Notes under the pieces: model-generated
The model's input: the letters and a program-made list of their open reading frames with translations, nothing else
The model's database searches: none
What the model was told of the DNA's origin: nothing
From: Bolinopsis microptera
Lineage: Eukaryota > Ctenophora > Tentaculata > Lobata > Bolinopsidae
DNA: 64,000 nucleotides
NCBI RefSeq assembly: GCF_026151205.1
Contig: NC_087079.1
Coordinates: forward strand, 11,708,635-11,772,634
Reading direction: 5' to 3'
Shown: positions 2,824-64,000 of the stretch, in pieces
Position numbering within the stretch: the stretch's first letter is position 1
Layout: the number at the start of each line of letters is the position of its first letter
Translations under genes and position numbers: made by a program

Positions 2824-5800
2824 ATACGACAATGTTATGCGTGTTTTCAAATATAATATGCGGGTGTGGTGCGGAGTTAACAAGGGTTAATTTCTATAAC
2901 GATTTAAATAAAAATAGAAAGCGGTTCAAGACGGGAGTGATGAGGTGTAATACTCGGTGTTCAGACCTTATGATCATGGAGTGTGGTGCCTCATGGCTAA
3001 TAATGACTTAATTATCCACAAGAAATAACTGATTATGAGATTATTGTTTAAGAAACTATTGGGTCACCTAATGCGGGTTTTGACTCAGCGGGTAATTACT
3101 CCTACCCTTTTTAACTGCGGCAGTGAAATCCCGGCCGTAGGCCGGGTTACACTAGTTATATCATAATGTAAGGTTCACAATTCACACACAAACTTGTAAA
3201 ACTAACACTGTGATTTATAAAGCGACTTGTAAAACTAACACTGTGATTTATAAAGCGACTTGTAAAACTAACACTGTGATTTATAAAGTGACTTGTAAAA
3301 CTAACACTGTGATTTATAAAGTGACTTGTGTTGCCGTAGAAAGCCGCGTCAATAGTGAACATCCCCTCGTCCACCTCCGTTCCTTCAGTTGTCTGGTAAT
3401 CCAAATCGAACAGGTATGTTAGACCTTGCGCATCGTATTCTCTAGAAAATGGCTTTTTAAAGAAGACTAAAAGTATCACCAATACCTTAGTTGTTAACTT
3501 ATGTCACTTAGTTTTTATAATATATACAATATACATTATATAATAGAAAGTAAAAGTGTTTAATTACTTTATATTGTTGATTTATTAAAACTTACTTCCC
3601 ACGCTGTTCAGCCTCGTCAAATGTTATAACTTCCCCCACGTACTCTACTACAAAAGTCCCTTTCGGAATATTCTGCAGAGTCTGAAACATAGTGTATTAT
3701 ATAATATATAAATATAATAGGCAATAACAGTGTTAAATTACTTATCTTGTTGATTTATTAAAACTAACGATTTCTAATGATGCGACGTTTTATCATGTTT
3801 TATGAATTTTCATATATGTTACTGTACTTACACAAAGTGAAACAACGGTTTTACAAACTATAAGTCGATAAATCGTTATTTGACTTAGTATATTCAGCTC
3901 ACTCGGTACTTTGTCACTGGATAAATTCAACAACAACAAAAGTATATTACTGTCGTTACATTTATTGTAAAATCCGGATCATTATTTATGAGTCGCATAG
4001 TTGAAATGTTGTCGCATTGAAACGTTGAATAATTCCTTTCCCTGATAAGAGCCTTTTCCTTGTCACATCAAACGGGATCAATACAAATTTTACCCAAGAA
4101 GCGTTATATTTATTGTTATATTGATTTGCATATTTTACGTTTATGGTGCCATATTGCACAGTTTCTTTTCCATTAAAATAACAAATATAGAAGATATCCC
4201 TTCAGTTACCTTGAGCCCCCAGCCCTTGTCGGGTGTCTTGTAGATGGCTGTTTTCACTTGAGTACCTCTCTGTACGATTCTGTTTCCGCAGTCGGGTCCG
4301 CAGGAGCAGCGAGCGTTACACTCGTATATGGGGAACCCTTGCTTCAGGAGTAACTTCCCTTTCTAGGGACAATACAATTAGTTTCCAAAAAACGGATACA
4401 AAAAAGTTGTCAGAAAGCGACAACCTTTCAAAAATGACTCAGTTTTAGAAAAGGAAGTTGTTCAAGAAGAAACAGTGTGACAGTTTTAGTCACATTTGTA
4501 TTGTATTCAACGAAAATAATCTAACTTATACTTTCTATTTTAGATCAAGAATTAAACGAATATTTATATATTTCGTGTTTTGCATATTTTCGCGCGAAAA
4601 AGATCTTTATTCAAAAAAAGGTCTCCGCGCGTTCCACACCAGTAGAAAATTAAGCGAAAATTATAGCAGTAGATGTTTTGTTTTCAGAATTGTAAGCGAA
4701 TGTCGCCCCAGTTCAGATACAAATTGGCGCAAAAGTTAGGTCAGTGCGCAAATGTTACAATTTCGCAAGGACACCTCTCACCTGCAGTCTGATGACATTT
4801 TGGTGCTGATGAAAATGTTTCGGCAACCAAATATTGAACAGATAAACTTTCATAGTCCAGGCAAGCAATTTACCGACATGGATCAAATATGAGTAATTAG
4901 ATTTCTGCAATACATTGTTACAGTTCGGATGGAAAATAGTACTTGAAACCGAATACGAACCCGGACCCTCTGATGTGAGGCGATAATGTTGCCAATGGGG
5001 CGACATTTGCTTACAATTCTGAGAAGTAAACCGGTCGACATTCTTACAATTTCGCTTACAATTTTGCTAGAACACCTCCTCAAAAATAGTGTTTTATGCA
5101 ATTAAAAAGAATTATTCCTTCCATAACCTACAAAACGATTTCCTTCAAACTTTCCAGATAGTAAGATAAGTATGAGACTGACAATATATGCAAGTTTGGG
5201 TAAATTTCTAACGGGCCAAATTTGAGATATCATTTCCCATCATTTCAAACACAAGAACATATCCCAAATAGGTGGTTCGCTATAGAACGCAGGCGAGAGA
5301 TCTTACGATGTGATTTTCTTTAAACTTTCCAGATAGTAAGATGGTTATAATAATGATAATCTGATTCTCAAATTCTACACATGAAAAATCATTCACACTA
5401 ACATCACGTGATTGATAAACTTACATTGTTGTAGGGAAACTGATAAACTTACATTGTTGTAGGGAAACTGATAAACTTACATTGTTGTAGGGAAACTGAT
5501 AAACTTACATTGTTGTAGGGAAACTGATAAACTTACATTGTTGTAGGGAAACTGATAAACTTACATTGTTGTAGGGAAACTGATAAACTTACATTGTTGT
5601 AGGGAAACTGATAAACTTACATTGTTGTAGGGAAACTGATAAACTTACATTGTTGTAGGGAAACTGATAAACTTACATTGTTGTAGGGAAACTGATAAAC
5701 TTACATTGTTGTAGGGAAACTGATAAACTTACATTGTTGTAGGGAAACTGATAAACTTACATTGTTGTAGGGAAACTGATAAACTTACATTGTTGTAGGG

Positions 5801-8800
5801 AAACTGATAAACTTACATTGTTGTAGGGAAACTGATAAACTTACATTGTTGTAGGGAAACTGATAAACTTACATTGTTGTAGGGAAACTGATAAACTTAC
5901 ATTGTTGTAGGGAAACTGATAAACTTACATTGTTGTAGGGAAACTGATAAACTTACATTGTTGTAGGGAAACTGATAAACTTACATTGTTGTAGGGAAAC
6001 TGATAAACTTACATTGTTGTAGGGAAACTGATAAACTTACATTGTTGTAGGGAAACTGATAAACTTACATTGTTGTAGGGAAACTGATAAACTTACATTG
6101 TTGTAGGGAAACTGATAAACTTACATTGTTGTAGGGAAACTGATAAACTTACATTGTTGTAGGGAAACTGATAAACTTACATTGTTGTAGGGAAACTGAT
6201 AAACTTACATTGTTGTAGGGAAACTGATAAACTTACATTGTTGTAGGGAAACTGATAAACTTACATTGTTGTAGGGAAACTGATAAACTTACATTGTTGT
6301 AGGGAAACTGATAAACTTACATTGTTGTAGGGAAACTGATAAACTTACATTGTTGTAGGGAAACTGATAAACTTACATTGTTGTAGGGAAACTGATAAAC
6401 TTACATTGTTGTAGGGAAACTGATAAACTTACATTGTTGTAAGGAACTGATAAACTTACTTGTGTAGGAAACTGATAAACTTACATTGTTGTAGGGAAAC
6501 TGATAAACTTACATTGTTGTAGGGAACTGATAAACTTACATTGTTGTAGGAAACTGTATAACTTACATTGTTGTAGGGAAACTGGTAACCTTACATTGTT
6601 GTCAGGAAACTGATAAACTACATTGTGTAGGGAAAAACTGATAAACTTACATTGTTGTAAGGGAAACTGATAAACTTACATTGTTGTAGGAAACTGATAA
6701 ACTTACATTGTTGTAGGGAAACTGTAAACTTACATTGTTGTAGGGCAAAACTGATAAACTTACATTGATTGTAGGGAAACTGGATAAACCTTACATTGTA
6801 AGGGCAGGGACTGTTAACTACATTGTTGTAGGGAAACTGGTAAACTACATTGTAAGGGAGGGAAACTGACTAAACTTTACATTGCAGAGGGAAACTGATA
6901 AACTACATTGTTGTAGGGAAACTGTAAACTTACATTGTTGTAGGGAAACTGATAACTTACATTGTTGTAGGGAAAATGATAAACTTACATTGTTGTAGGG
7001 AAACTGATAAACTTACATTGTTGTAAACTGATAAACTTTCTTGTTTAGGGAAACTTTACAACTTATTTTGTTGTAATGATGATATTTACTTTTGTAATGG
7101 AAACTCATTAAAATACAATTGGTTTGTACGAACAGCTTTCGGTGTTGTAGGGGTTCACTGAGTACACTCTTACATTTGTTTCGCAGGGGGAACGATTAAC
7201 GTATATGGGGAACCTGCTTAAACTTCCTTTTAGGGACATACACATTAGTTTAAAAAAAACGTACAAGTTGTAGAAACGAAACTTAAATTGTTTTAGAAAA
7301 GAATTGTAAGAAGAAACAGTGTAGAATTATACTTTATTGTTTAGGAAAATATTAACTTACTTTATTTAGATCAGAATTAAACATTTAATTTGGTTTGTAG
7401 GGAAAGATCTTACAAAAGGTTGGCTTCAACCTAAAATTAAGGAAAATTATAACTTACATTTTGTTTTAGGTGGAATCGATAAAAAATTGCCACATTAGTG
7501 TGGCAAATGTTAAATTTCGAGGGAACTTCATGCATCTTACTTTTTGTAGAAGTGAACAATGAAGATAACTTATATCCAACAATTTGCATGGTAAATTGAT
7601 AAACTTACATTGTTCGTGGAGGAAATGATAAACTTACAGGTTGTGTAGGGAAATGTAAATTACATTGTTAAATTGGGAAACGGTGAATTAAATTCCTTAC
7701 ATTTTGCTAGAAACCTAAAATATGTTTTAGAATTAAAAATTATTCTTAAAACTAAAAAATTTCCTTAAATTTGTAGTAAATGATAAACTTACAAGTTTGG
7801 GAACAACGGGCAAACTTAGATTCATTTAGCATAAAACAGAACTTACAATGGTTGTATAGGAATGTTTAAATTTTCTTTATTTAGGAAGTGGTATAAATTA
7901 ATTGTTTAAATCACATGAAAATCATTAATACACGGATGATAAACTTACATTGTTGTAGGGAAACTGATAAACTTACATTGTTGTAGGGAAACTGATAAAC
8001 TTACATTGTTGTAGGGAAACTGATAAACTTACATTGTTGTAGGGAAACTGATAAACTTACATTGTTGTAGGGAAACTGATAAACTTACATTGTTGTAGGG
8101 AAACTGATAAACTTACATTGTTGTAGGGAAACTGATAAACTTACATTGTTGTAGGGAAACTGATAAACTTACATTGTTGTAGGGAAACTGATAAACTTAC
8201 ATTGTTGTAGGGAAACTGATAAACTTACATTGTTGTAGGGAAACTGATAAACTTACATTGTTGTAGGGAAACTGATAAACTTACATTGTTGTAGGGAAAC
8301 TGATAAACTTACATTGTTGTAGGGAAACTGATAAACTTACATTGTTGTAGGGAAACTGATAAACTTACATTGTTGTAGGGAAACTGATAAACTTACATTG
8401 TTGTAGGGAAACTGATAAACTTACATTGTTGTAGGGAAACTGATAAACTTACATTGTTGTAGGGAAACTGATAAACTTACATTGTTGTAGGGAAACTGAT
8501 AAACTTACATTGTTGTAGGGAAACTGATAAACTTACATTGTTGTAGGGAAACTGATAAACTTACATTGTTGTAGGGAAACTGATAAACTTACATTGTTGT
8601 AGGGAAACTGATAAACTTACATTGTTGTAGGGAAACTGATAAACTTACATTGTTGTAGGGAAACTGATAAACTTACATTGTTGTAGGGAAACTGATAAAC
8701 TTACATTGTTGTAGGGAAACTGATAAACTTACATTGTTGTAGGGAAACTGATAAACTTACATTGTTGTAGGGAAACTGATAAACTTACATTGTTGTAGGG

Positions 8801-11800
8801 AAACTGATAAACTTACATTGTTGTAGGGAAACTGATAAACTTACATTGTTGTAGGGAAACTGATAAACTTACATTGTTGTAGGGAAACTGATAAACTTAC
8901 ATTGTTGTAGGGAAACTGATAAACTTACATTGTTGTAGGGAAACTGATAAACTTACATTGTTGTAGGGAAACTGATAAACTTACATTGTTGTAGGGAAAC
9001 TGATAAACTTACATTGTTGTAGGGAAACTGATAAACTTACATTGTTGTAGGGAAACTGATAAACTTACATTGTTGTAGGGAAACTGATAAACTTACATTG
9101 TTGTAGGGAAACTGATAAACTTACATTGTTGTAGGGAAACTGATAAACTTACATTGTTGTAGGGAAACTGATAAACTTACATTGTTGTAGGGAAACTGAT
9201 AAACTTACATTGTTGTAGGGAAACTGATAAACTTACATTGTTGTAGGGAAACTGATAAACTTACATTGTTGTAGGGAAACTGATAAACTTACATTGTTGT
9301 AGGGAAACTGATAAACTTACATTGTTGTAGGGAAACTGATAAACTTACATTGTTGTAGGGAAACTGATAAACTTACATTGTTGTAGGGAAACTGATAAAC
9401 TTACATTGTTGTAGGGAAACTGATAAACTTACATTGTTGTAGGGAAACTGATAAACTTACATTGTTGTAGGGAAACTGATAAACTTACATTGTTGTAGGG
9501 AAACTGATAAACTTACATTGTTGTAGGAAACTGATAAACTTACATTGTTGTAGGGAAACTGATAAACTTACATTGTTGTAGGGAAACTGATAAACTTACA
9601 TTGTTGTAGGGAAACTGATAAACTTACATTGTTGTAGGGAAACTGATAAACTTACATTATTGTAGGGAAACTGATAAATTTACATTGTTGTAGGGAAACT
9701 GGTAAACCTACATTGTAGCAGGGAAACTGATAAACTTACATTGTTGTAGGGAAACTGATAAACTTACATTGTTGTAGGGAAACTGGTAAACTTACATTGT
9801 TGTAGGGAAACTGATAAACTTACATTGTTGTAGGGAAACTGATAAACTTACATTGTTGTAGGGAAACTGGTAAACTTACATTGTTGTAGGGAAACTGATA
9901 AATTTACATTGTTGTAGGGAAACTGGTAAACTTACATTGTTGTAGGGAAACTGGTAAACCTACATTGTAGCAGGGAAACTGATAAACTTACATTGTTGTA
10001 GGGAAACTGATAAACTTACATTGTTGTAGGGAAACTGATAAATTTACATTGTTGTAGGGAAACTGGTAAACTTACATTGTTGTAGGGAAACTGATAAACT
10101 TACATTGTTGTAGGGAAACTGGTAAACTTACATTGTTGTAGGGAAACTGATAAACTTACATTGTTGTAGGGAAACTGATAAACTTACATTATTGTAGGGA
10201 AACTGATAAACTTACATTATTGTAGGGAAACTGATAAACTTACATTGTTGTAGGGAAACTGATAAACTTACATTGTTGTAGGGAAACTGATAAACTTACA
10301 TTATTGTAGGGAAACTGATAAACTTACATTATTGTAGGGAAACTGATAAACTTACATTGTTGTAGGGAAACTGATAAACTTACATTGTTGTAGGGAAACT
10401 GATAAACTTACATTGTTGTAGGGAAACTGATAAACTTACATTGTTGTAGGGAAACTGATAAACTTACATTATTGTAGGGAAACTGATAAACTTACATTGT
10501 TGTAGGGCACTTTCAAAAACATCTGTCATGGAAAAAATGTTAAAATTTGTCAAAAATCAGTTTTTGTGGCATAATTTGGTGGATAATGTTTGGAATGGGA
10601 TGAAACTCCAGGATATGGTGTGCTATACCCTAACCTTTACTATCTGCCACTTTTTGTTTCGATTTAGGGCTAAATCTGGTGGATAAAAGTGAAACAGACC
10701 AATCCACTTCAGGTGGCCTTTAAAAATATTTAATTCCATCTAAACTCCTAAAATATGATTGAGACTTAACAATAATCGTTATAACTTCATAATTTCATAA
10801 GTAGGGCCGGGATTTTTCTTAAGGGCCAAATTTGGTGGATATATTTGTTTACCTCTTTTTTAAGACTGTTATTTGTTAGCTAACATCAATTTACTGGTCT
10901 TAGAATGATGCAAAGGCAATGTTAAATCTATGGCATCAACTATGAAGTACAAGATTCAAGTTAAAAGGCTATTTTTGGTGGATATAAGTCAATATTAATT
11001 AGTTAAACACGTAAATGTTACCAAAATATCAATAAATAAGACATCATCATGATTAGAAACAGTTGAAAAAGATGAAATATAAGATGTTGAACAATTATGC
11101 ATAAGGTACTATGGCATTTTAAGCATTCAGGGCCAATTTGGTGGATAATTAACTCAAAAATACTTAAAATATCGACCTGGATATTTTGATATCCATCAAT
11201 TTTGGCCTTAAAAGTCGGCTTGAGCTTATCACATTTTGTGCTGAACAAGAAAAAGGTCTAAACAAACCAATATCAGTGTATGATTTCATAATTGAGCAAA
11301 TCTAAGGCCAGAAATAGTGGATAAAAAAGCAAATTTAACCGTTTTTAAGCTAATTTCTTAGGCATTTATCCACCAAAAACGGCCCTAAATGGAGAATGTT
11401 TGGAACGTTTACTTGAAACTATAGCCCTTCTTTACGACCTCAGAGCAATGATTTTCAGCTCTTTCGACCTTAAGATATAATTATTGGGCTTTGAAAGTGG
11501 ATCACATACGTTATCAGTAAAGAAATCGTTATTTCAATCGCTGAGGTAGGTTATTCACATTTAATATCCACCAATTTTAACCTTAAAAGTCGTCTTGGAC
11601 TGAGAATTCTTTTGAACTGACTCAGCAAAGGGGATCTTCTATCTAGAAACAGTTGTAGTTTCATGATAGAACACATCTTGGGCCAAAAATAGTGGATAAA
11701 AATCAAATTTTCCAGTTTGTGTGCTTTTATCCATCAAAAACGGCTCTAAAGGCTGAAAGGAGACAGTTTGTTAAGTTCGTATGAAACTATATCCATTCGT

Positions 11801-14800
11801 TATGGCCCTAGAGCAATAATTGTATACATTTTCAGCTTCTAGACGAGATAATTGGGGTCTAACAATGGATAACCTGCATTATTGACACAGAATTTGACTT
11901 AAAAATAAAATCAATCTTGAAGCTCCAATATATCCACCAAAAATGGCCTAAAAATTAAATCATCTATGCTATCATAAACTTGAAACGATTTCCAACCTGA
12001 TCCGTTCACTGAGAAAAGCTGGTGAACTTGTTGACCAATATAATTTTTTCAGTTGAAAATTTTCGGTATTGAATTTTATTTCATCGTTTTATTATCCACC
12101 ATATGTAGCCTTAAAATTGAAATCTTTCTTTATTTTCGCCTTTTATCATAGAGGCATATCGATTTGCTACAATTCTATCTTTAAATAATCACCATAAATT
12201 AACCACACGTAAAGTTACAGGCCAACAAATGATATATCCACCAAACCCCTCTGAAAAGTATATCCACCATTATTAGCCTTGATTTAAATGCGTGTATCTC
12301 TGCTCATAGACATAGTGGACATTTTATTCTTTTTGTAAAAGTTGAACTATCGCAAATCCTATGCTGAAAAAAATTTTAATCAAAATATTGAGTATATCCA
12401 CCAAATGAGAGCTTCTAGAAGTTGAAATTTTTCCCGTGACAGATTCGTTAACATAGTTTTTGAAAGTGCCCTGTAGGGAAACTGATAAACTTACATTGTT
12501 GTAAGGAAACTGATAAACTTACATTGTTGTAGGGAAACTGATAAACTTACATTATTGTAGGGAAACTGATAAACTTACATTGTTGTAGGGAAACTGATAA
12601 ACTTACATTGTTGTAGGGAAACTGATAAACTTACATTGTTGTAGGGAAACTGATAAACTTACATTGTTGTAGGGAAACTGATAAACTTACATTGTTGTAG
12701 GGAAACTGATAAACTTACATTATTGTAGGGAAACTGATAAACTTACATTATTGTAGGGAAACTGATAAACTTACATTGTTGTAAGGAAACTGATAAACTT
12801 ACATTGTTGTAGGGAAACTGATAAACTTACATTGTTGTAAGGAAACTGATAAACTTACATTGTTGTAGGGAAACTGATAAACTTACATTATTGTAGGGAA
12901 ACTGATAAACTTACATTGTTGTAGGGAAACTGATAAACTTACATTGTTGTAGGGAAACTGATAAACTTACATTGTTGTAGGGAAACTGATAAACTTACAT
13001 TGTTGTAGGGAAACTGATAAACTTACATTGTTGTAAGGAAACTGATAAACTTACATTGTTGTAGGGAAACTGATAAACTTACATTGTTGTAAGGAAACTG
13101 ATAAACTTACATTGTTGTAGGGAAACTGATAAACTTACATTATTGTAGGGAAACTGATAAACTTACATTGTTGTAGGGAAACTGATAAACTTACATTGTT
13201 GTAGGGAAACTGGTAAACTTACATTGTAACAGGGAAACTGATAAACTTACATTGTTGTAGGGAAACTGATAAACTTACATTGTAACAGGGAAACTGATAA
13301 ACTTACATTGCAGCAGGGAAACTGATAAACTTACATTGTTGTAGGGAAACTGATAAACTTACATTGTTGTAGGGAAACTGATAAACTTACATTGTTGTAG
13401 GGAAACTGATAAACTTACATTGTTGTAGGGAAACTGATAAACTTACATTGTTGTAGGGAAACTGATAAACTTACATTGTTGTAGGGAAACTGATAAACTT
13501 ACATTGTTGTAGGGAAACTGATAAACTTACATTGTAACAGGGAAACTGATAAACTTACATTGTTGTAGGGAAGAGCTGCCCCGCCTAAATGTGGGCAGCA
13601 CTCCACGTGAGGAGACAAGCAGCAGTCCTTAACACCGTACTCTCCTGAACAGACACAACCTGAAACGGGAGTAGAATAAGGGGCCAACTAGTTAGTAACA
13701 CTGTTAGTTACCATAGTTACAACTAGTGACCATAAACATTAGTTACTTTTAGTTTGATTGTGGTATCAGTAAGTGACATGAATAGCAACATTAACTAAAT
13801 TTTAGCTACGGTTGCTAAGACTGACCTATGAGTGTATCGTCACTTATATGAACTCCTTTTCCAGCAAACCTATCTCGCACAAATGTGAAGTTCAGGGGCG
13901 GCAAGTTGAAGTCCACCGTATTCAGTATCTGCGTAAATAGGACCATTACTTTGATTAACCATATTCAGTATCTGAATCCAGCTAGTGTATATTACAGAAT
14001 CCAGCTAGTGTATATTACATAATCCAGCTGGTGTATATTACAGAATCCAGCTGGTGTATATTACAGAATCCAGCTGGTGTATATTACAGAATCCAGCTGG
14101 TGTATATTACAGAATCCAGCTGGTGTATATTACAGAATCCAGCTAGTGTATATTACAGAATCCAGCTGGTGTATATTACAGAATCCAGCTGGTGTATATT
14201 AGAGAATCAAGCTAGTGTATATTAGAGAATACAGCTAGTGTATACTGTATATTACAGAATCCAGCTGGTGTATATTACAGAATCCAGCTGGTGTATATTA
14301 CAGAATCCAACTGGTGTAATAATAATATATATATTATTCTTATTATTACCTCGACAGTGGGAAAAGAGGGGCCCAGTTCCTCTTGAACTTTATTTGCGTA
14401 CTGTTTTAACAATCTCCTGTATTGCACTTTAAGTGCCTGTGAAGACAATTCCGCATTTAGCTGCCACAGATGTACCTGAAGAAGAGGTACTACAAATAGT
14501 GCTCCACAAACCTTTTAACATGTTCTTTAAGAAACATTATCGAGAATAAATTTTAATGGTAATAATTTACGAATGAAGATACCTGTGATTTTATAGCGGA
14601 AATCTTCTGTGTTCGTTTCTTTAGTCGCGTTTTTATAGCTTTCAAATCCTCGCAAATAGCGCTGGGAAAGGTTGACAATCAAAAATTTTATATTATTTAA
14701 TATGTCAACTTATCTACCTTCAAAACTGAACGATTTTATCTGAAAATGTGTGGGAAGGAACCCATTTTGCCAGAAATGAATAAAAAACTTTTCTTAATGT

Positions 14801-21544: not shown

Positions 21545-21800
21545 TGATTAATCACTCTACAATCGCCTGTCACGTGACTTCTTCAACCCGTTCTGTAGAT
21601 GGCCCTAAACAACTATATTCGAACCCCGGAAACCATAACCCTCTAATCAGATCCCAATCCTAACGGCCTAACCCTAACCAAATCCTTTACAAAAGCATAT
21701 ACTGAAACACTATAGAGAAATTATACGGTCATATCACGTGATCGAGACAGTTTTTCGCCAATATCTCGTTAGGGGAGAATTTTAACCTTATGTCATGGGG
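21545..21800. repeat. Dispersed repeat C, copy 1
   Basis: Inverted relative to 27360-27765. Shared blocks include GATGATTAATCACTCTAC, TCACGTGATCGA, and TTTTTCGCCAATATCTCG together with their complements. It contains several CCCTAA/CCCTAACC motifs and CACGTGA boxes. A weaker relative is visible at 960-1140. Element type unknown. Confidence 0.6.
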
Positions 21801-24066: not shown

Positions 24067-24359
24067 GTTCGTTCATTTACTGATTGATAGCTATTTTAAT
24101 GAACTTATTTGTTTAGATTTATGACGTGTTTCTCAATTGACAATTTTATACCCTCGAGATAATACAAAATTCTATGAAGGATACATTTTTAATGTTCAAT
24201 TACATAAATGACAAACTTAAGTTGACTAAATCGCTGCCTGTATTTAGATTATTTAAAAAAATCAATTTGGTGTGACCACAGTACCATAAGTCGCACTGAG
24301 CATAAAACCTGTGAGCGAATCACCATACTTAAAGAGTGTGTGCCAGCTCATGTCCGTCT

Positions 24360-28693: not shown

Positions 28694-28695
28694 TA

Positions 28696-28730: not shown

Positions 28731-28731
<1 letters not shown>

Positions 28732-29347: not shown

Positions 29348-29373
29348 GGGGGTACACTACCTCCAGGGGTGGG

Positions 29374-30418
29374 CGACAATTGACCCCCCGACAATTGACC
29401 CCCCGACAATTGACCCCCGACAATTGACCCCCCGACAATTGACCCCCCGACAATTGACCCCCGAAAATATAATTTAATACAATTAACCCTGACCCTGACC
29501 CTGACCCTGACCCTGACCCTGACCCATGACCCTGACCCAGGAACAGCTGTCCCTGACCCTAACCCTAACCCCAACCCTAACCCTAACGTTAACCCTAACC
29601 CTAACCCTAACCCTAACCCTAACCCTAACCCTAACCCTAACCCTAACCCTAACCCGATTAATTTACCCCAGTTTAATTACAATTGTCGGGGGTCAATTGT
29701 CGGGGGGTCAATTGTCGGGGGGTCAATTGTCGGGGGGTCAATTGTCGGGGGGTCAATTGTCGTACTAAGCCCTAGATTTCGCGACAATTGACCCCAGTGT
29801 AATTACATAGAGGGTCAATTGTCGGGGGGTCAATTGTCGGGGGGTTAATTGTCGGGGGGTCAATTGTCGGGGGGTCAATTGTCGTACTAAACCCTAGATT
29901 TCGCGACAATTGACCCCAGTGTAATTACATAGGGGGTCAATTGTCGGGGGGTCAATTGTCGGGGGGTCAATTGTCGGGGGGTCAATTGACCCCCCGACAA
30001 TTGACCCCCCGACAATTGACCCCCCGACAATTGACCCCCGACAATTGACCCCCCGACAATTGACCCCCCGACAATTGACCCCCGAAAATATAATTTAATA
30101 CAATTAACCCTGACCCTGACCCTGACCCTGACCCTGACCCTGACCCTGACCCTGACCCTGACCCTGGCCCTGACCCTGACCCTGACCCTGACCCTGACCC
30201 TGACCCATGACCCTGACCCAGGAACAGCTGTCCCTGACCCTAACCCTAACCCCAACCCTAACCCTAAGCCTAACCCTAACCCTAACCCTAACCCTAACGT
30301 TAACCCTAACCCTAACCCTAACCCTAACCCTAACCCTAACCCTAACCCTAACCCTAACCCTAACCCTAACCCTAACCCTAACCCGATTAATTTACCCCAG
30401 TTTAATTACAATTGTCGG
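29374..30418. repeat. CAATTGTCGGGGGG satellite with interstitial telomeric repeats
   Basis: Blocks of a 15-bp unit (GGGGTCAATTGTCGG) occur in both orientations at 29374-29465, 29680-29765, 29815-29885 and 29935-30085. They are joined by a recurring spacer containing CCCTAGATTTCGCGACAATT. Embedded are (CCCTGA)n at about 29487-29540 and 30104-30235, and (CCCTAA)n at about 29566-29655 and 30236-30384. The telomere-like runs are internal, flanked on both sides by other sequence, and appear twice in the same CCCTGA-then-CCCTAA order. Confidence 0.93.
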
Positions 30419-34896: not shown

Positions 34897-35081
34897 CGAT
34901 CCAGTAATATGTATAATCCTTCGAAAACAACTGTGTTGCACACTTGTATACACACTGTGTATAACAGGTGTAATAAGAAGGTTAAGCTCTTACACACGTT
35001 ACACGCAAATATTGCTTATATCGGTAGATATATCAGAGCTATTAAAATCGTTGCAAAATGTAAACGTACTACTAACTTCAA

Positions 35082-35440
35082 TTTGTCGGGGGGTCAATTG
35101 TCGGGGGGTCAATTGTCGGGGGGTCAATTGTCGGGGGGTCAATTGTCGTACTAAGCCCTAGATTTCGCGACAATTGACCCCAGTGTAATAACATAGAGGG
35201 TCAATTGTCGGGGGGTCAATTGTCGGGGGGTTAATTGTCGGGGGGTCAATTTTCGGGGGGTCAATTGTCGTACTAAACCCTAGATTTCGCGACAATTGAC
35301 CCCAGTGTAATTACATAGGGGGTCAATTGTCGGGGGGTCAATTGTCGGGGGGTCAATTGTCGGGGGGTCAATTGTCGGGGGGTCAATTGTCGGGGGGTCA
35401 ATTGTCGGGGGGTCAATTGTCGGGGGGTCAATTGTCGCGG
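35082..35440. repeat. CAATTGTCGGGGGG satellite, right block
   Basis: Continuation of the satellite interrupted by the LINE. It has the same 15-bp units and the same spacer with CCCTAGATTTCGCGACAATT. The whole satellite region is bracketed by similar sequences: GGTACACTACCTCCAG at about 29351 and GGTACCTACCTCCAG at about 35439. Confidence 0.92.
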
Positions 35441-35640: not shown

Positions 35641-38600
35641 CAATGCGTTATTTACACAGGAGTCGAAGGACTGAGCAATCTGGTTACACCGTAACACTTG
35701 GTCGGGGTTAGCTCTGTAACATTCCGCTAGATCTGATACGTTACTGCTGCACATCTCCTTCTTCTCTGGAATCCTGATATGGTGTGCTAGTTATTACATC
35801 TACACTCTGCTACTAAAGTACAGCGCGCGAACGTATTTCAGCTGTATTACCAGGCGACAGCTCTGAGTGCGCTAATAGCAGTCGAGGGAGGGTTGGCGCG
35901 AAATGTCGACAAATGACCGCAATTAAACATCGCCCTGCTGTAATGTTCATAAACATAGAGATTCGGCGGAATGACAGGCTGAGCGCCGCCCAGTAACACC
36001 CTATAACAGAACGGAATGGAATTAAACTTGTTTTTATTCCATTCCAAAACCGGGCTTCAGGGGAAAAACGAAAAGTGTACGGTATAGAAAAAAGAACCCG
36101 GTATGGCGGTATAGAAACGTTAAAATTATCCCAATCCCCAGTATCTGTGGCCTCTCAATTAATCTTTCAAGCGTCTCACATGCTCAATATGTGTATTCTA
36201 TGTACGTATTGTGTAATTGTGATGGAATACTGTTGGGGGGGGGGGGGGGGGGGGGGAAGGGGGGGGGGGCAACCATATTAAAGTACATTAAATTTTAAAA
36301 TGTAGGTTTTTTTTTTCAATTTTGACCCGGGGATAGACTTTAATATACTTTAATATACCTATATTATCTCGATTCAAAATTTGGCCGCTTAATTTATTTA
36401 AAGGCCTCCAATGTATAGATTAGATTTAACTTTCATGTTAAGTTAGTCTTGTTCAAAGATATTGATACTTGACCAATTTATGAGTTCAGGGGACTAACAA
36501 CTGCCTCATCTTGTAAATCTTAACGAAGAATATAAATCTACTAATTGTAAGTATATTAAAAAATATTAAAATGTAGTGTTTTTCCGATTTTGACCCGGGG
36601 ATATACGTTAATATGGTTGCCCCTCCCTCCCCCCCCCCCCCACTGTTCGATATCACGCAGTCACATCACCACGAAATGTGAGGTCACGCAGGTGTGATCC
36701 AATGCAGGATATACGAACCCTTGACACACGTGCACGAAAGAGGTATACAACGTGTAGCAAACGAACCCGCACAATCAATATGAGTAATATGTATAAATGC
36801 TAAATTGGAAATACATTTACGACTCTTCAAACCTATAGATCACAGCAATAACAAGAATTGCGCCCGTTTGTTCGGCTGTCGGCGGACGCTAAATTTCCAT
36901 CCACTTGCACCAACTCTTCAAATTTTATCATGCCTTGGCCTTCAATTAATTTTTCGTTTCTTGTGTCACGTGAATTGGCTTAATTGACTAGCTGAATAGT
37001 GAATAGTTACATTAAACCAAAGTAAAAGTTGATCGTTGTACCTCAGCTGAGCAGGTCAGCCAATGCAATTAAAGTGGGCCGGACCAGCTTAATGTAATTG
37101 TTGATTAGCTCAAGTTTGGAGGTGCCGCGAGTTTGGTTGTCTGTAATAAAATACTTGTGCATCGAAGAAAATAAATGTTGTTCAGACACAGCGCGCGCGT
37201 TAAGGCAATTTAATTAATTTTACTGATAAGCCGCGCGACTGTATTCTGAAATATCGCGTGTAGATTTAATTTGAATGTTCCTCCGCAAACGTTAAGATAA
37301 GATAACCTATAGATCACAGCAATAAAAATGGTTGGTGTAAAGTATTTCTACCTAAGGGACTTCGTTGTTTTTCTGACACTTGACAGGACTAGAAGGTTCA
37401 AATGATCTGTGAAACTTTCTGGAAAACTATCAACCATCTGGAACGAGCCGTAACTAATAAATTATACTATACTGGCGCGGCTCGGCCGGGCGGCCAGCCG
37501 GCTGTTCTAGCGTGGATTCTAATCCGATAGGATAACGCCATTCCTGGTTGGACGACGTTCGCTGTCCTAGGGCGATCCGATCGCATTTCAGATTGTCGTC
37601 CGATCGCTCTTGATCGCTAGGCGCTCGGATTTTATTTTTGAGAGGCGATAGGATAGAAAAATCCGAGAGCCTAGCTCTAGGATTTTACGTCTCCGAGAGG
37701 TGTGCTCTCGGATTTATCATTTCCGGGAGATAAAATGCGTGTTGCGCGTTTCCGAACTCAAATAAAATTCCATCGAGATCGAAAACATGAAAAAAAATTT
37801 AAAATATTAACTTTTAGTATGTTTTCATTCTTCCGTAAAATTAATGAGAAAATATAGAGAAGCAAAATTCATCATCATTGGATACGGCCATACTCGGTTG
37901 AATACACCCCATCTCGTTCGATCTCGGAAGTTAAGCAACTGCAGGCCGGGTTAGTACTTGGATGGGTGACCGCCTGGGAATTCCCGGTGCTGTATCCTTT
38001 TGTTATATTTCCGAAGAACAATAGTGCAGACATCTTCGCACTATTTTGAATATAAAGTACCCAGGAGTCATCTCCAACAAAAACTTGTATAAACGCTGCA
38101 ATGCTGAACCATTGTCAGAAAAAGTGGCCCGTAGTCGGTGGAGAATGTTAGGACATGTTTTGCGGGGTCCTTTTGACGGACCAGCGTTTTCTTCCCTCAT
38201 TTTTGCCATCAATACACTGGACTTACCAGGGAGAAGAGGAAGACCCCAAAGCAATCTATTCTCGCTGATTGTGCATGATTTATGTAAAAGAAATATTTAT
38301 TTGAATAATATCTTTGACCTGCATTATCTCTGTAATTTAGCGTATGACAAGAGATATTGGCGGGAATTGCAATGAAGTTTTTGATTTTTAGTTTTTATTT
38401 TAGGGAAAGATTAGACTTGGGCGTTGTTTTTTAAACTATCCCTTGTTTAGAACTTTGATTTAATAATTTAATAATGTTTTACTGAACAGAAGAAATTGTG
38501 AATGGCTTTTTCAGAATTGCAGTGGTTATTAAGAGTAGCATTTTATCCTCAGAAATATAGTCTATGTTCAAACGCAAGGAAATGTTTCCAAATGTCAGAA

Positions 38601-44600: not shown

Positions 44601-47600
44601 AAATCCGAGATATCTCGGACGCGCTAGAATAAATCCTAGGGTAATCCTGTCTAATTAGAATCGCAGAAATCGACGTTCTGAACAGCCGTGAGCCGGCGCG
44701 CGCAATGATTGATTGTTGAATGCCCCAAAGTTTCTACACAACGGTGAATTCGCGGCTTACGTAAAATTGAAATCGAATAGTGATTCCAGAAGGATTTACG
44801 ACAAAACTTTTCCAAATAAAACTGTAAGGCCTACAAAATGAATTGTTTTAAATTTAAGGTAACCCTTCAAACACAAGAAAATATTCCCAAATCGGTGGTT
44901 CGCTGCGGAACACAGGCATCTAGAGATACAGAGATATAGAGATCCTACTATACGATTTTCTTTAAATTTCCAAGATAATATTTGACAAAAATCAGTGTTA
45001 GTACTAATAAGACTAAATTAGAAGTTACTGGTGTTTTATGAAAAGTTTGAATGAAACTTACTGGAGCTTTGAAGTGACAAGGCCGAATCCTTCTTCGTGA
45101 GCACAACTTATGTCCTGTTTTCGTTTTTGCAACTGAAAAACCATCGTTTAAATTGACAATTTTCATCAGACCAAAAGAACCATTAGACAAAGAATATGAG
45201 AATGTTTAACTAGATTGTTGCGATACAGTCAGTGGGGTGGGGGGGGGGGGGGAGGGGAGGAGTACTATACTCCCCCCCCCCCCCCCTTGGGGTGGGGTAC
45301 TATACTCTCACCACTCACATTGCTTTCAATAACACTAAATCTATTCCGCCACCGTGACCGCTCTGTATTCAAAGCATTAGACATCACACCAGCGTCTATT
45401 CTAGCTTGGTCCCTTGCTCCTTCTACCTTGGCTTCTGTTATAATCTTCTGTACCTGAACAATATTGCTCTAGAAAAGTACGATCAGACAAACGGTCAATT
45501 GAAAATATTCACGGCTATTTTAAAAGGTTTTAAACACTGATTGAAATTAATCCGACGAAAATAAGGTCGTTAATCGGGATACACACCTCTTGTTTTTTGT
45601 ACTCTCCAAATAATGACTGAGCGAGATTGTCTGACGGTGGAAGCTCATTTATTTCATCAGGGATTGATACCGCAACCACAGGCTCGATAACCGGCTTAAT
45701 TTGAGTTAACTCTACAGCTGGTCCAACCTCTACTTCTACCACTGGCTCAACGACTGGCTCAACGACTGGCTCAACGACTGGCTCAACGACTGGCTCAACG
45801 ACTGGCTCAACGACTGGCTCAACGACTGGTTCAACGACTGGTTCAACGACTGGCTCACTCTCAGTAGATTCAGGCTCTACTGGTTTAGCGATTTTATCAG
45901 TCTCTGGTTCCGAATTGGCTATTTCATTTCTAGCCGAGATGAAGTATGGTTCGATGGCTTTCTGTATTAAACCGAATAAGCTATGAGACTCTGAAGAATC
46001 AGATGAGGTCTTAACAATCTCTGATTGAACAATAGCTTCTGGTGTCATTACAACAGACTCTGGTATTTCAACAGGTTCTGGCAATAAATGAACTGGCTCT
46101 GATGCCGTTTCAATAGACTCTAGGACCGGTTCAATAGACTCTATGACCGGTTCAACAGGCTCTGGTAATGTTTCGACAGGCTCTGACACCGTTTCAATTG
46201 ACTCTAGGACCGGTTCAACAGGCTCTGGTACCGTTTCAACAGACTCTGGCATCGTTTCAATAGACTCTAGGACCGGTTCAACAGGCTCTAGTACCGTTTC
46301 AACAGGCTCTATTACCGTTTCAACAGGCTCTAGTACCGTTTCAACAGGCTCTGACACCGTTTCAATAGACTCCAAGACCGGTTCAACAGGCTCTGGTACA
46401 GTTTCGACAGGCTCTGACACTGTTTCAATAGACTCTAGGTCCGATTCAACAGGCTCTGGTACAGTTTCGACAGACTCTGGCACCGTTTCAATGGACTCTA
46501 GTGCCGGTTCAACAGGCTCTGGTACAGTTTCGACAGACTCTGGCACCGTTTCAATGGACTCTAGTGCCGGTTCGACAGGCTCTGGTACAGTTTCGACAGA
46601 CTCTGGCACCGTTTCAATGGACTCTAGTGCCGGTTCAACAGGCTCTGGTACAGTTTCGACAGACTCTGGAACCGTTTCAATGGACTCTAGTGCCGTTTCG
46701 ACAGGCTCTGACACTGTTTCAATAGACTCTAGGACCGATTCAACAGGCTCTGGTACAGTTTCGACAGACTCTGGCACCGTTTCAATGGACTCTAGTGCCG
46801 TTTCGACAGGCTCTGGTACAGTTTCGACAGACTCTGGCACCGTTTCGATAGACTCTAGTGCCGTTCCGACATGCTCTGGTATAGTTTCATCTACCTCTGA
46901 AGGTATTTCAACAGGTTCGGTCACTGATTCAACTGCTTCAACAGACTCAGATAACACAGGTTCAAGCTCCACATCTTCTTGGTTGAGTATTTCAACATGT
47001 TCCACTACTGGTGTGTCAGGTGATTGCTCGATAATATGATCTTGAGCTGGGTCTGCTTCTAATTCAGTTGCAGGAGCCTCTAAAACTGCTTCTAATTCAG
47101 TTGCAGGAGCCTTTGAATCTTCTACAATTTCCTGTTCGATGGGTAACGATTCAACTATTGCGTTAGTCTCCAAGATGAGTAGTTCCACAACTGGTTCCTC
47201 TATTGTAGATACATGAGCCCCAGGTTCTACATTACACTGCTCCTCTGCTGAAGGATCTGAAATGGCAGGTTCCAGAATAGCTTTCGTTTCAGCTGCCAAT
47301 GTCTCCGATATTAATTCTAGTTCATCAGTGACAGGGAGTATAAAGATTGGTGCTTCTACTTGATCACCATCCAGTGGTCGCATTTCTTCCGCTGTTTCCA
47401 TACAATCAAGTGATTTAACTTCTTCTTTGGGAGTAGTTGTAGGCTCAGATAATTCTTCTTCTTCTTCTTGTATAACGTTGTCATTCAGATTAGATGAAGC
47501 TGATTTGTCCTCTTGAACGGGTTCGTCTGAAAAGAGTGTAAATTAGAATACAATATTACATTCAAATGTAATTTACCTTAGTCATATGCGGTTTAAAGAG

Positions 47601-50600
47601 AATAAGTTTTAACCACAACTGCTTAATAGCAAATCTTACAACTATACATATATCGGAACAAAATCGTTATTACATATTATATTTAAACCACTACTGGAAC
47701 ATCCAAAATTCATATATTCCATTATATTCATATAAAAAGCATTGCGCGTAAATAAATATCAATATATAATATAAAATATCAATATAAATAGCTGTGTGTA
47801 AGATGGGAACAAAATCACATATTTAAGATGATTTAAATCAGAACACGCATTTTGAGTTGAACCGATTTGAATTTGATAAGAATCGATTTGAAATTGATAA
47901 AAGTAGCTTTGCGACAGAATTTATGCAATGTTTTCAGAGAAAAATAATGCTGGATTTGAAATGAAGAGAATCAACAAACACAAAAGCGCAGAACAGCATG
48001 CTGATTAACAGGGACAATGAACCTTTACCAGCTTGTTCTTCTCCGCACATTTCTTCAATACTTTCTTCTTTCAAATTATCCGTAAAAGCAGGTACTTCAG
48101 CTGGGTCGTTACCAATCATTAATACCTCCTCCTTTGGCGCATCATAAGATACCAATCCCTCTCGCTGGATTTCATCAGCTACAATAGCCGATATTTCTTG
48201 GTCAGATTTCTCAGGCACAGCCTGTTCTTGTGGTGCGGTAATTCCAATGTAAGGAGCTGTGGTATCTTCTTCTTCGGTACATTCCTTATCTGTGTCTGTG
48301 GTTGGAATAAGCTCTTCTTCTTCGGTACATTCCTTATCTGTCTCTGTGTGTGGAATGAGCTCTTCTTCTTTGGTACATTCCTTATTTGTCTCTGTGTGTG
48401 GATTAAGCTCTTCTTCTACTATACATTCCTTATCTGTCTCTGTGTGTAGATTGAGCTCTTCTTCTTCGGTACATTCCTTATCTGTCTCTGTGTGTGGAAT
48501 GAGCTCTTCTTCTTCGGTACATTCCTTATCTGTCTCTGTGTGTGGAATGAGCTCTTCTTCTACTATACATTCCTCTACAGGTAGAGAGTCTGCAAATATT
48601 TTACCAGGTGAGCTAGGTTCAGTGTCTTGAATAGAACTATCAAAGTTTGACGTCATAACATCTTCTATTTCTTCATCATTGTCGGATAAAACGACAGACT
48701 CCAATTGGGGGGCATCATTTAACGGCTCCAATTCGATGATATCCTTTAGCGGCTCCAGGAGTGGAACCTCACTACCCTCTACACATCCCTCCCTGCACAT
48801 TTCATCACCACTGTCGCTACTATTATCCTCGCTATCTGATAGCTCTATCTCACTATCAGTATCACTTAGATCTGTAGTGGGAACTAGCACGTTCTCTGTT
48901 GTACAGACTGTCTCACTTTCTCTATCATTAACATCTAATTCAAGAGCTTGATCAGATTCAGCAATCGCTGGTTCAATCTGTATCTGTTCAACCGTAGGAT
49001 CCGTCACAATGTTAGGTTGATTATCAGCTGTAATTATCGTTTATTATTACAGTTATTCTTTTACAAAACAAATTTTTTTTTAATAAAACAAAAATATTAC
49101 CGTATTAATAAAACAAAAATATTATTACGCCATTTATTGAAAATCCGGATAAGATATCGTACCTGCCATGTTCAGTTTTCAATTTAAAGCTATTTAAGTA
49201 CTTATCAAACAATATTCGCAATATTTTGGCCTATAGCTCCCAATTTAGATTTATAGACTCAAAATGTAATAAACTGCTGCACTGCAGCTTGGTATTTTGG
49301 GCTACTAAGCCTCCTATGTCCACCCGAAAGATTGAATATGGTTCTTACATATATATAATGGGACGTATTGAATCCTCCTATTATTATAATATATTATTAT
49401 TAAATATAAATAGTGAATTACTTGGTTGTAGTCCAGGGTATAAATATAGCGGGGGGAGCTCCAAAGCATTTACGGATCCAATTTGATTCCCCACCATTCC
49501 AGACATCACGGGAAAGTTACCTGGGTGAGAAACAGGTTAGACAAACCAGCTCCGTACCTGGGGTCACAATGAGCTCTACCAGCTCCCTACCTGGGGTCTC
49601 AATGAGCTCTACCAGCTCCCTACCTGGGGTCTCAATGGGCTCTACCAGCTCCCTAACTGGGGTCTCAATGAGCTCTACCAGCTCCGTACCTGGGGTTCTC
49701 AATGAGCTCTACCAGCTCCCTACCTGGGGTCTCAATGGGCTCTACCAGCTCCCTACCTGGGGTCTCAATGGGCTATACCAGCTCCCTACCTGGGGTCACA
49801 ATGGGCTCTACCAGCTCATAAGGCTCGATGTCCTCATAGTATTCTTCTTCATCGTCCTCCTCCTCATCGTCTTCAAAGTCTAAACCCAAATCAGCTCCTA
49901 TTGATTTATACAGCTCCATGTCAACCGTCTGAAGTAAGTTATGGTGTGAAATTATGAAATATAAAGGTTATGCAGCCCTGGTAGTATACTTCGTTGGAAT
50001 CAAATGACGATTTAAAATAAAAGGGGGGGGGGGGGGGGGGGGGGGGGGCGAAACAGCTGCCGAAATGGAAACTCGTTGCTGGATTGAGGGGAATGAAGGC
50101 AGCGACCTCCGGGTGGTCAGCAACTCTTATGATGAACTGATAAAGTATCTACTATCTATGAAGCACACCAAATTAACCAGAGTACATTGGGGCTTATTTC
50201 TCAGTCACTGATTAAAATAATTCTTTCTGATATCGCTCATTCGAGGAAAATAACCATGTTAATTTTTCCGAATGCACGTTCACTTTCAGATATTTTGACT
50301 GACTGGATAGAGTTAAATAACAATGTATTGTGTTCGTCCTTACAAAATAAACATGTCCTGAAAAAATGGGAACTGTAGCTACTCAGATGACCGAGATATC
50401 AAGGATTTAAAAGAGTTTATTCATTACGTGGTATCAGGTGATTGGGTTGAAACTAGATCCACATTATGGGAAATGTGCAGAAAGCCTTATTACGGTGTCG
50501 TACCACGTTATCACATGATTAGCCAATCAATTTCGCTTTAAACGAGAAAATAATAATGATAATAACTAGAAATGTATACATCGCTTTATATCCAAAAAGA

Positions 50601-51139: not shown

Positions 51140-51601
51140 AGCTCCTTCTAACTCCTCTCACATTCAAAGCACCACCTTTTTGCTTTTTTAACGATAAATT
51201 GATTATTATATAATGCACAGCGAATTCTGTAACAAAAATTATAGAATGCAGTTCTAAATTTTGAATTTTGAGGAAAGAGGCATTAATTAATGATTTAACA
51301 CACGCTAGTCGCTATCACAGTTTCCAAACAATCATGATTTGATATTATGGAGTTAAACAAAATTACAAAATTCATATGTAACATTCTCATATTATAAATA
51401 CATGGTTCTAAAGGTGCCCTTTAGCTATAAAGCAACGAAGAAATGCTTAGTACGTAATTTAAAACCGAGAAATTACAAGAAAACCAACAAAAATGCAAAA
51501 ATAATGCAACAAAACTTAGTCGACTAAGATTGAGAAACAAGGTTAGATTATATCAAACACAGAAACTTATTGCATAACATAGAGAAGCGAGAATTCCTGA
51601 T
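51140..51601. other. Intergenic spacer between two minus-strand genes
   Basis: AT-rich. It should contain the promoter of the MIC19-like gene and the 3' untranslated region of the next gene. Confidence 0.5.
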
Positions 51602-59040: not shown

Positions 59041-59284
59041 TACTTAAGCATATTATTAACACAGCAGTGTAAGGTACAACGGTGGAGGTACGTGTATGAC
59101 TGTGCGTGAGAAGATTTACAAATTAAGGTCACGGTTGACCAGGTGTTCACGTTAAGCATCAAATCTCTATACAGTGAATGTCATTCACACACTAGAACAC
59201 CCATGCAGCACACACTAGAACACCATTAGCATGCAATTGCTTGTGCAAATTATGTAGTACATAACCCTGCCCCTACGATGTATG
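59041..59284. other. Intergenic sequence
   Basis: Contains a short near-duplication around CACACACTAGAACACCCAT and CACACACTAGAACACCATT near 59190-59225. Nothing else recognised. Confidence 0.5.
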
Positions 59285-59574
59285 CAGTGGCGTAACGTTG
59301 CCTGTTGGCGCCCCCCTGCCGAAAAAAGCGCCCCCCTGTTGGCGCCCCCTCCCTTTTTGGTGCCCCTCCCTAAAATTGAACAAATTAGGTGATTTTAAAG
59401 AATACGCCGGTAAAATCTCTAAAAAAGTGTGTATCTAGAGCAAAACGCGCAGTTTTGCTAGTACTTTAGTTAAGTTTTCGAAATTGTCCCACATTCAAAC
59501 GACGATTTGGCGCACCCCCTAAGACGGCGCCCCCCTGCACAGCGGGGTCAGCAGGGCCTTTCGTTACGCCACTG
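59285..59574. mobile_element. hAT-type MITE with 8-bp target duplication
   Basis: 290 bp bounded by CAGTGGCGTAACG and its exact complement CGTTACGCCACTG. GATGTATG lies on both sides (59277-59284 and 59575-59582). The CAGTGGCGTA terminus and 8-bp duplication are typical of hAT transposons. The interior has several GGCGCCCCCCTG blocks. No transposase. Confidence 0.92.
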
Positions 59575-59582
59575 GATGTATG

Positions 59583-61835: not shown

Positions 61836-64000
61836 TTAAATTTTGGCTTGCCTTTTGGCTGTCTTGTCCTCTTTAAATAACTGCTTCAGCAAATACACCT
61901 GAAAAAAATAACCCACAATTATTTCATGTCTTAGATAAGAAGGGGTTTTATAATCCATTAAGTTACTGTGGTAACAGTGTAGTATTGATTATAATCCATT
62001 AAGTTACTGTGGTAACAGTGTAGTATTGATTATAATCCATTAAGTTACCGTGGTAACAGTGTAGTATTGATTATAATCCATTAAGTTACTGTGGTAACAG
62101 TGTAGTATTGATTATAACCCATTAAGTAGCTAAGAAGTTTAGCTTGGTATAATTAATTAATTAAGACTGCACTACTACACTGTTACCATAGTAACAGTGT
62201 AGTATTGTTCGTATAGTGACCAGGTGTTTAAACTCCACGTGTCCTAATGGCTAATACGCAGGAACTATTTAAGATGGTCACTGTGTGAGCCTATCAGTGT
62301 AGGTATTGTGTTCAGTTGAAATAATAATCCAGGGTTTCAGAAACTTGTTGACTATTTTATAGAGTGTTGAGATTATGATTGTGAAATTGATGGTGTACCC
62401 AATTACAAAAAATACAATAAATCTATCAGTATCTGGAAAGAAAATTAAAGAAGAGTTTTGTCCTAATTGTCAATGACCTGGACAGTTATAGCCATGAGTA
62501 CCATGAAGGCACACTACTATTACTACTGACCTGAACAGTAGCAATGAGTACCATGAAGGCACACTACTATCACTACTGACCTGGACAGTAGCCATGAGTA
62601 CCATGAAGGCACACTACTATCACTACTGACCTGGATCGGACAGTAGCCATGAGTACCATGAAGGCACACTACTATTACTACTGACCTGGACTGTAGCCAT
62701 GAGTACCATGAAGGCACACTACTATCACTACTGACCTGGACTGTAGCCATGAGTACCATGAAGGCACACTACTATCACTACTGACCTGGACAGTAGCCAT
62801 GAGTACCATGAAGGCACACTACTATTACTACTGACCTGGACAGTAGCCATGAGTACCATGAAGGCACACTACTATTACTACTGACCTGGACAGTAGCCAT
62901 GAGTACCATGAAGGCACACTACTATTACTACTGACCTGGACAGTAGCCATGAGTACCATGAAGGCACACTACTATCACTACTGACCTGGACAGTAGCCAT
63001 GAGTACCATGAAGGCACACTACTATCACTACTGACCTGGACAGTAGCCATGAGTACCATGAAGGCACACTGTACCATACTCCACCGGTCCACCCTTATCT
63101 TATTACTGTTCTGTATCTTCTGGTCTTTGTTTCTCTGAGCTTTACTGAGTTGGAGTTGAACTTGAGTCTTGAAAAGCTGACTCTTTATGTTATCTACTTG
63201 TTTCTGAAGGGATAAAAGCGTATTGGTAAATCATTTACAACGTTTGAAAATTAAGTTACTAACATGGAGAGATGTGAAAATCGCGTAAAGTGAAGCAAGT
63301 TACTAACATGGAGAGATGCGAATCCCGCGTGAAGTGAAGCAAGTTACTAACATGGAGAGATGTGAATCCCGCGTGAAGTGAAGCAAGTTACTAACATGGA
63401 GAGATGTGAATCCCGCGTGAAGTGAAGCAAGTTATTAACATGGAGAGATGTGAATCCCGCTTGAAGTGAAGCAAGTTACTTACATGGAGAGATGTGAATC
63501 CCGCGTGAAGTGAAGCAAGTTATTAACATGGAGAGATGTGAATCCCGAGTGAAGTGAAGCAAGTTACTAACATGGAGAGATGTGAATCCCGCGTGAAGTG
63601 AAGCAAGTTATTAACATGGAGAGATGTGAATCCCGAGTGAAGTGAAGCAAGTTACTAACATGGAGAGATGTGAATCCCGCGTGAAATGAAGCAAGTTACT
63701 TACATGGAGAGATGTGAATCCCGTGTAAAGTGAAGCAAGTTATTAACATGGAGAGATGTGAATCCCGAGTGAAGTGAAGCAAGTTACTAACATGGAGAGA
63801 TGTGAATCCCGCGTGAAGTAAAGCAAGTTATTAACATGGAGAGATGTGAATCCCGAGTGAAGTGAAGCAAGTTACTAACATGGAGAGATGTGAATGCCGT
63901 GTAAAGTGAAGCAAGTTATTAACATGGAGAGATGTGAATCCCGAGTGAAGTGAAGCAAGTTACTTACATGGAGAGATGTGAATCCCGTGTAAAGTGAAGC
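61836..64000 (-). CDS. TMED5: p24/TMED cargo receptor, C-terminal exons (partial)
   Basis: Expected role: a type I membrane protein of early secretory vesicles, acting in cargo selection and COPI/COPII traffic. Last exon 61836-61898 (VYLLKQLFKEDKTAKRQAKI and stop) after TTTTTTCAG. The preceding exon, 63036-63203 (56 codons, phase 0 at both ends), encodes KQVDNIKSQLFKTQVQLQLS and more, IRVDRWSMVQCAF and VLMATVQ, ending CCAG|GTCAGT. Coiled coil, then the membrane segment split across the exon junction, then a short cytosolic tail is the p24 plan; WSMV and QVYLLKQLF match the gamma subfamily (TMED1/5/7) best. The GOLD-domain exons lie beyond 64000. The tail has basic residues but no terminal KKxx. 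The donor is embedded in a 50-bp array. Confidence 0.78.
61949..62128. repeat. 41-bp minisatellite in the p24 intron
   Basis: Four units of 41 bp containing TTATAATCCATTAAGTTACT and GTGGTAACAGTGTAGTATT. A palindromic relative (ACACTGTTACCATAGTAACAGTGT-like) follows near 62178-62202. It is not adjacent to an exon. Confidence 0.9.
62470..63070 (-). repeat. 50-bp minisatellite across the p24 splice donor
   Basis: About 12 units of about 50 bp. On the minus strand each has TGCCTTCATGGTACTCATGG, then CTACTGTCCAG|GTCAGT. The unit nearest 63070 is the end of the coding exon (CAFMVLMATVQ) and holds the authentic donor at 63036/63035. The other units repeat the same donor through the intron. A 5-bp insertion near 62635 breaks periodicity once. 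Confidence 0.93.
63245..64000 (-). repeat. 44-bp minisatellite running off the window edge
   Basis: About 17 units of 44 bp. On the minus strand each contains CATCTCTCCAT followed by GTTAGTAAC, GTAAGTAAC or GTTAATAAC. GTAAGT and GTTAGT are donor-like, and the array lies in the intron upstream of the 63036-63203 exon, so it may begin at an exon outside the window. That exon cannot be seen. Confidence 0.9.

Follow-up and report, generated by a model that had tools for sequence, protein, structure and literature searches.

Minisatellites that run across a 5' splice site (donor) are known from human genes. That of CBS, a variable-number tandem repeat (VNTR) at the exon 13/intron 13 position, was reportedly first described by Lievers in 2001. 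Its 31-bp unit is given as c.1444_1467+7(16_21), a notation for 16–21 copies of a segment with 24 nucleotides from the exon and 7 from the intron (PMC2630376), and the minisatellite of human IFI6 (6-16) carries multiple splice donors, two of whose downstream units are used, giving three mRNA species (Turri et al. 1995). Here we describe five donor arrays in, and at the edge of, a 64,000-nt stretch of the genome of the ctenophore Bolinopsis microptera (contig NC_087079.1, positions 11,708,635–11,772,634; hereafter the window). They lie in five introns of three adjacent genes, an SUV39H2-like gene, a gene referred to as gene B and a TMED5-like gene, all on the minus strand, and range from 4 to perhaps 200 copies.

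Like the CBS VNTR, each of these is a tandem array across a donor with a unit that is part exonic and part intronic. The CBS repeat is polymorphic and concerns one human gene, whereas here five introns of three adjacent genes carry unrelated units of 28–50 bp. IFI6 uses its downstream donors; in our arrays, 75 of the 78 copies examined would then lead to a premature stop. Intron gain by tandem duplication is similar in that splice signals are copied when the duplicated segment spans an exon-intron boundary, but the outcome there is a new intron and the boundary is on the acceptor side; our arrays lengthen an intron that already exists, and do so across the donor. CBS 844ins68 is also a short duplication of a splice junction with which normal mRNA is still made, but it is a single event at intron 7/exon 8, which we read as an acceptor junction although the paper speaks of a donor (PMC2630376). 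The architecture is already known from CBS and IFI6; what is unusual is its recurrence in five introns of three adjacent genes, together with a possible genome-wide class. Searches of an open-licence library turned up no prior report of such a class of donor minisatellites.

Five arrays begin in exons and extend into introns

The largest array (SUV28, 28-bp unit) follows a pre-SET exon of the SUV39H2-like gene (13559–13659), whose last base is 13559 and whose donor is AACAAT/GTAAGT (the slash marks the splice junction). Tandem Repeats Finder (TRF), used for this and the next three arrays, reports it as an exon-proximal part at 12472–13572 (39.3 copies) and a distal part at 5413–10507 (181.9 copies, of which 6421–7940 is degenerate and suspect); the two are one array split by an inserted element of 1967 bp. 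The next exon lies at 4210–4362 (acceptor ttgtccctag/AAAGGG). Further downstream in the same gene, the SET exon at 3306–3441, which ends in ...SHFINHS at the donor CACAGT/GTTAGT, runs into a 33-bp array (SUV33; 3192–3329, 4.2 copies), and the SET exon after that array (1892–1984) starts with CDPNL. In gene B, the exon at 49790–49928 ends at CCCCAG/GTAGGG within a second 33-bp array (B33; 49545–49817, 8.2 copies). The TMED5-like exon at 63036–63203, ending in ...MATVQ, has the donor GTCCAG/GTCAGT within a 50-bp array (TMED50; 62474–63070, 11.8 copies). The preceding intron of this gene holds a 44-bp array (TMED44; 20 units in all) that runs from 63253 to 64000 and past the right edge of the window. 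Followed into the adjoining sequence, it likewise begins in an exon: its first donor, CTCCAT/GTAAGT, is at extended coordinate 64100, 100 bp outside the window, as is the exon itself.

A first-pass annotation of the window had placed four exon ends (3306, 13559, 49790 and 63036) inside first array units, and TRF and our exon models agree with this to the base. Each unit combines sequence from both sides of a single 5' splice site (24 exonic and 9 intronic nt in SUV33), and each array has its start in the exon and runs on into the intron; homology supports this outside gene B. In the joined exon models every array sits within one intron, and no extra intron was seen. Two more arrays in the same genes are purely intronic, and neither contains a splice site: the one at 13974–14318 begins 32 nt after the donor at 14350, and the one at 61948–62127 stops 50 nt before the acceptor at 61898.

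When joined at their GT-AG sites, the modelled exons give open frames. In the SUV39H2-like gene, eight exons between 14475 and 1506 form one such frame, whose product matches SUV39H2 chains in PDB (E = 3e-76) as well as the pre-SET and SET Pfam models. Its two array junctions, LPYNN/KGKLLL and NHS/CDPNL, align to SUV39H2 chains without gaps. The five TMED5-like exons encode a 219-aa p24 protein that matches the Pfam model EMP24_GP25L and is nearest to a TMED5 chain (E = 5.5e-32); the last of these exons is VYLLKQLFKEDKTAKRQAKI (61839–61898). The junctions SLH/KQV and ATVQ/VYLLK are again gap-free, with some gaps within about 20 residues before SLH/KQV. Gene B encodes an acidic, repeat-rich protein; a Pfam search with 204 of its residues gave no match, and the evidence for its donor is the open frame and the matching phase. 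A chromodomain upstream in the SUV39H2-like gene was recognised by eye.

The first donor keeps the frame open

In each of the five arrays, splicing from the first donor leaves the frame open to the end of the next exon. From 75 of the 78 downstream copies examined, a premature stop would follow, located either within the extra units or, where the frame has shifted, within the next exon (SUV28 is represented in this count by its 39 exon-proximal units). With the remaining three, all in SUV33, each unit would add 11 aa to the SET domain between NHS and CDPNL. The earlier statement that each array extends downstream from the donor that comes first in transcription order is borne out; frame and, outside gene B, homology support this donor, and we infer from them that it is the one used. 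The GT itself has been lost in 1 of 83 units (39 in SUV28, 4 in SUV33, 8 in B33, 12 in TMED50 and 20 in TMED44, first donors counted in). With so few GTs lost, donor choice would have to be decided by position rather than by donor sequence, if the products are made as the homology suggests.

If the downstream donors are silent, these introns would repeat in nature, with many copies, the classic duplicated-splice-site experiment, as the most intron-distal site would have to beat many equal intron-proximal ones, and they would allow first-come and exon-definition models to be tested directly.

Tandem duplication across the donor as the probable origin

Arrays contain 5 of the 22 donors modelled in these genes and none of the 21 acceptors (one-sided Fisher test, 0.027, a post hoc and optimistic value because the window was chosen for this pattern). 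The absence of arrays from acceptors agrees with the first-pass annotation, which had noted none comparable starting there. Exon and following unit match exactly upstream from the donor over 24 nt in SUV33, 35 nt in TMED50 and 21 nt in TMED44, and over 5 nt in SUV28 and 8 nt in B33, two arrays that each have a few differing bases in their first intronic copy. Since SHFINHS, which the SUV33 unit encodes in its exonic part, is conserved, the copying went from exon to intron and not the other way. By eye, the exon start and the distal end of the array have a microhomology of 6 nt (ACAAGT) in SUV33 and of 8 nt (GAGCTGGT) in B33.

We believe that the arrays probably arose by ordinary tandem duplication across the donor, which was tolerated because the first donor is used. 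A segment of 28–50 bp spanning one 5' splice site would have been duplicated in tandem and would then have grown into a minisatellite by slippage or unequal exchange; the 6–8 bp common to the array ends of SUV33 and B33 would fit a microhomology-mediated duplication. As long as splicing kept using the first, exon-attached donor, every added copy would become intron and the array could persist. Duplication on the acceptor side may be less tolerable, since the upstream copies would present an earlier AG. On the most parsimonious view, duplication strikes anywhere, a filter removes the harmful products, and the donor side is tolerant. Tolerance combined with first-donor use predicts the same array direction and the same donor/acceptor asymmetry as we observed.

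Arrays elsewhere in the genome

A random sample of 230 kb from seven other places in the genome contained 36 arrays with units of 15–60 bp and at least 2.5 copies. Units were scored with a generic metazoan donor matrix, taking the best score on either strand, and letter shuffles of each unit served as control. One sample array had a donor-like unit (score of at least 7.5), compared with 2.2 after shuffling and 2 after reversal, so that the 36 arrays show no excess. In the window region the corresponding number was 3 of 13 arrays, compared with 0.8 after shuffling; there the score missed B33 (best TRF period 133) and was low for SUV33 and TMED44, with consensus donor GTTAGT.

Sample arrays with at least 3 copies and a period of at least 9 were also read by eye, and one of these 49 lay beside a recognisable exon. 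In an ABC transporter gene (C5), a 15-bp array begins at about +3 of a donor, and its unit lacks the donor GT. The array at C9:13371 may be a further exon-side case, and the array at C11:24943 contains strong donors (score 11.3) with no exon visible upstream. About 13 myosin donors and about 13 myosin acceptors were inspected in the same manner; their exons were chosen for long open frames, and no rate is drawn from them. One donor is followed from +2 by a 48-bp duplication of 2.0 copies (C3:9157283) and another, from about +7, by a 21-bp repeat (80% matches). None of the acceptors lies in an array, though one has a 19-bp repeat that stops about 14 nt short of it. At C3:9153950, two tandem versions of one myosin exon resemble mutually exclusive alternative exons. 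A coding-potential model trained on 26 long open reading frames was dropped as too weak on short exons and served only to size the candidate list.

Across the whole assembly (264.65 Mb, 232 contigs), we searched for three copies of a word at gaps of 11–41. The donor words AGGTAAGT and AGGTGAGT gave 1354 and 1254 matches, respectively, compared with 11 and 185 for their reverses, and the acceptor word TTTTGCAG gave 202 compared with 12. The permuted word GATGGATA gave 205 matches and its reverse, ATAGGTAG, 1252, equal to the donor words; we therefore did not use total matches to gauge enrichment and instead counted distinct arrays by hand among the listed places, roughly the first 100 per word, so that the stretch covered differs by word. 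For AGGTAAGT there were 7 in about 28.9 Mb and for AGGTGAGT 9 in about 17.7 Mb, compared with 1 in 23.3 Mb for GATGGATA, at most 11 in 265 Mb for reversed AGGTAAGT, and 7 in roughly 160 Mb for TTTTGCAG (an approximate figure because of C4 and C7). Arrays of AGGTRAGT look several-fold denser than those of the few control words counted; ATAGGTAG, AGTAGTGA and TGAGTGGA lie outside this comparison, and many ATAGGTAG arrays could overturn the contrast.

Two of the seven AGGTAAGT arrays have one 32-bp unit in common. As a single word, AGGTAAGT occurs 10,758 times and its reverse 7,965 times, numbers from which we take arrays to account for a good part of the excess; the place list of this single word covers the plus strand. 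Applied to the window, the strict words AGGTAAGT and AGGTGAGT would catch none of its five arrays. At C1:428574–430927, a 54-bp array carries 44 copies of AGGTAAGT, and a second group at C1:885211–885466 has 5 copies about 55 bp apart.

Alternative explanations

Several observations weigh against tolerated tandem duplication as an account of the arrays. Terminal units (both ends) of the 26 arrays with at least 2.5 copies cover 3.1% of the window, and finding at least 5 of 22 donors at this coverage lies above the expectation from scatter (P = 0.0005, as post hoc and optimistic as the Fisher value). The apparent genome-wide excess of AGGTRAGT arrays over the control-word arrays counted need not follow from tolerance alone. 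By eye, microhomology at the array ends is not clear in SUV28, is at most 1 nt in TMED44 and is ambiguous in TMED50. Acceptor duplication does occur: at the acceptor at 13928 of an SUV39H2-like exon, a diverged second copy of the exon's first bases was seen by eye about 43 nt upstream (13928–13970), with no TRF call. Finally, the use of the first donor is deduced from protein homology and frame.

A donor-biased process might instead seed duplications more often at donors, for instance through an intrinsically unstable donor motif or where transcription of exon ends leads to breaks, R-loops or stalled forks. We regard this as possible, though rather unlikely. It would account for the uneven placing of the arrays, at 5 of the 22 donors but at none of the 21 acceptors, and the fifth case, TMED44, turned up when an array outside the earlier finding was followed. 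The higher density of distinct arrays for AGGTAAGT and AGGTGAGT than for GATGGATA, reversed AGGTAAGT and TTTTGCAG points the same way, as do the repeats starting at about +3 and at +2 of the ABC transporter and myosin donors. The latter repeats, however, do not include the GT; the random sample of 36 arrays had no donor excess; the ATAGGTAG total was on par with the donor words; and the AGGTRAGT arrays have not been placed at exon ends, and some may be copies of one unit. The first-pass annotation took the pattern to imply a shared seeding process or selection. The genome-wide AGGTRAGT excess does point beyond chance, but the implication is not established, as tolerance predicts the same asymmetry. 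If a donor bias does hold across the genome, it would point to one way in which minisatellites arise and introns grow.

We are slightly more doubtful that the five arrays represent a large genomic class of donor minisatellites anchored in exons, with a preference for forming at 5' splice sites and with faithful splicing at whichever of as many as about 200 near-identical donors comes first. Were this true, donors would be chosen by synthesis order or attachment to the exon, not by proximity to the acceptor, and exon ends would be mutational hot spots for tandem duplication. Even if the duplications are ordinary and tolerated, the cluster suggests that an intron's two ends differ in how far they tolerate repeat expansion beside an exon.

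Selection for the extra donors seems improbable, whether they would serve as alternative 5' splice sites under regulation, as in IFI6, or as U1 sites repeated within the intron. Counts of variation, in which array units are not independent, show donor columns to be less variable than the others in the proximal part of SUV28 (0 of 349 compared with 27 of 741), in TMED50 (0 of 103 compared with 9 of 451) and at 9000–10506 of SUV28 (5 of 486 compared with 18 of 1022), as selection would predict. In B33 (3 of 69 compared with 5 of 175) and TMED44 (10 of 177 compared with 22 of 670), in contrast, they are as variable or more so, and SUV33 (0 of 33 compared with 1 of 81) and the invariant stretches 5413–6420 and 7945–9000 of SUV28 are uninformative. 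The premature stops from 75 of the 78 downstream donors also argue against selection.

Least credible of all is an artefact of assembly behind the arrays, or an error in the exon ends: 6421–7940 in SUV28 is a degraded mixture, about 7200–7382 of which resembles window positions 4323–4557 (71% over 236 columns), and the perfect identity over 5413–6420 and 7945–9000 leaves the true length of SUV28 open, but gap-free alignments to solved chains pin down four of the five exon ends, and SUV33, B33 and TMED50 are each shorter than 0.7 kb and flanked by exon and intron sequence.

Other features of the window

The element that splits SUV28 (10505–12471, 1967 bp) has inverted ends GGGCACTTTCAAAAAC with TGTA on both sides; within it, ATCCACCA recurs 7 times and TGGTGGAT 5 times. 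The stretch 6421–7940, where degraded 28-bp units are mixed with other sequence, looks like a consensus or assembly artefact. The exons of gene B contain coding repeats at 45741–45857, 46105–46871 and 48265–48574, so that exonic repeats and a donor array occur in one gene. At about 37880–38000, a stretch resembling a 5S rRNA gene or a copy of one was recognised by eye. Telomere-like TAACCC arrays (29484–29655 and 30105–30384) lie within 29374–30384, far from the contig ends, amid 15-bp repeats CAATTGTCGGGGGGT in both orientations, and these 15-bp repeats appear again at 35078–35437.

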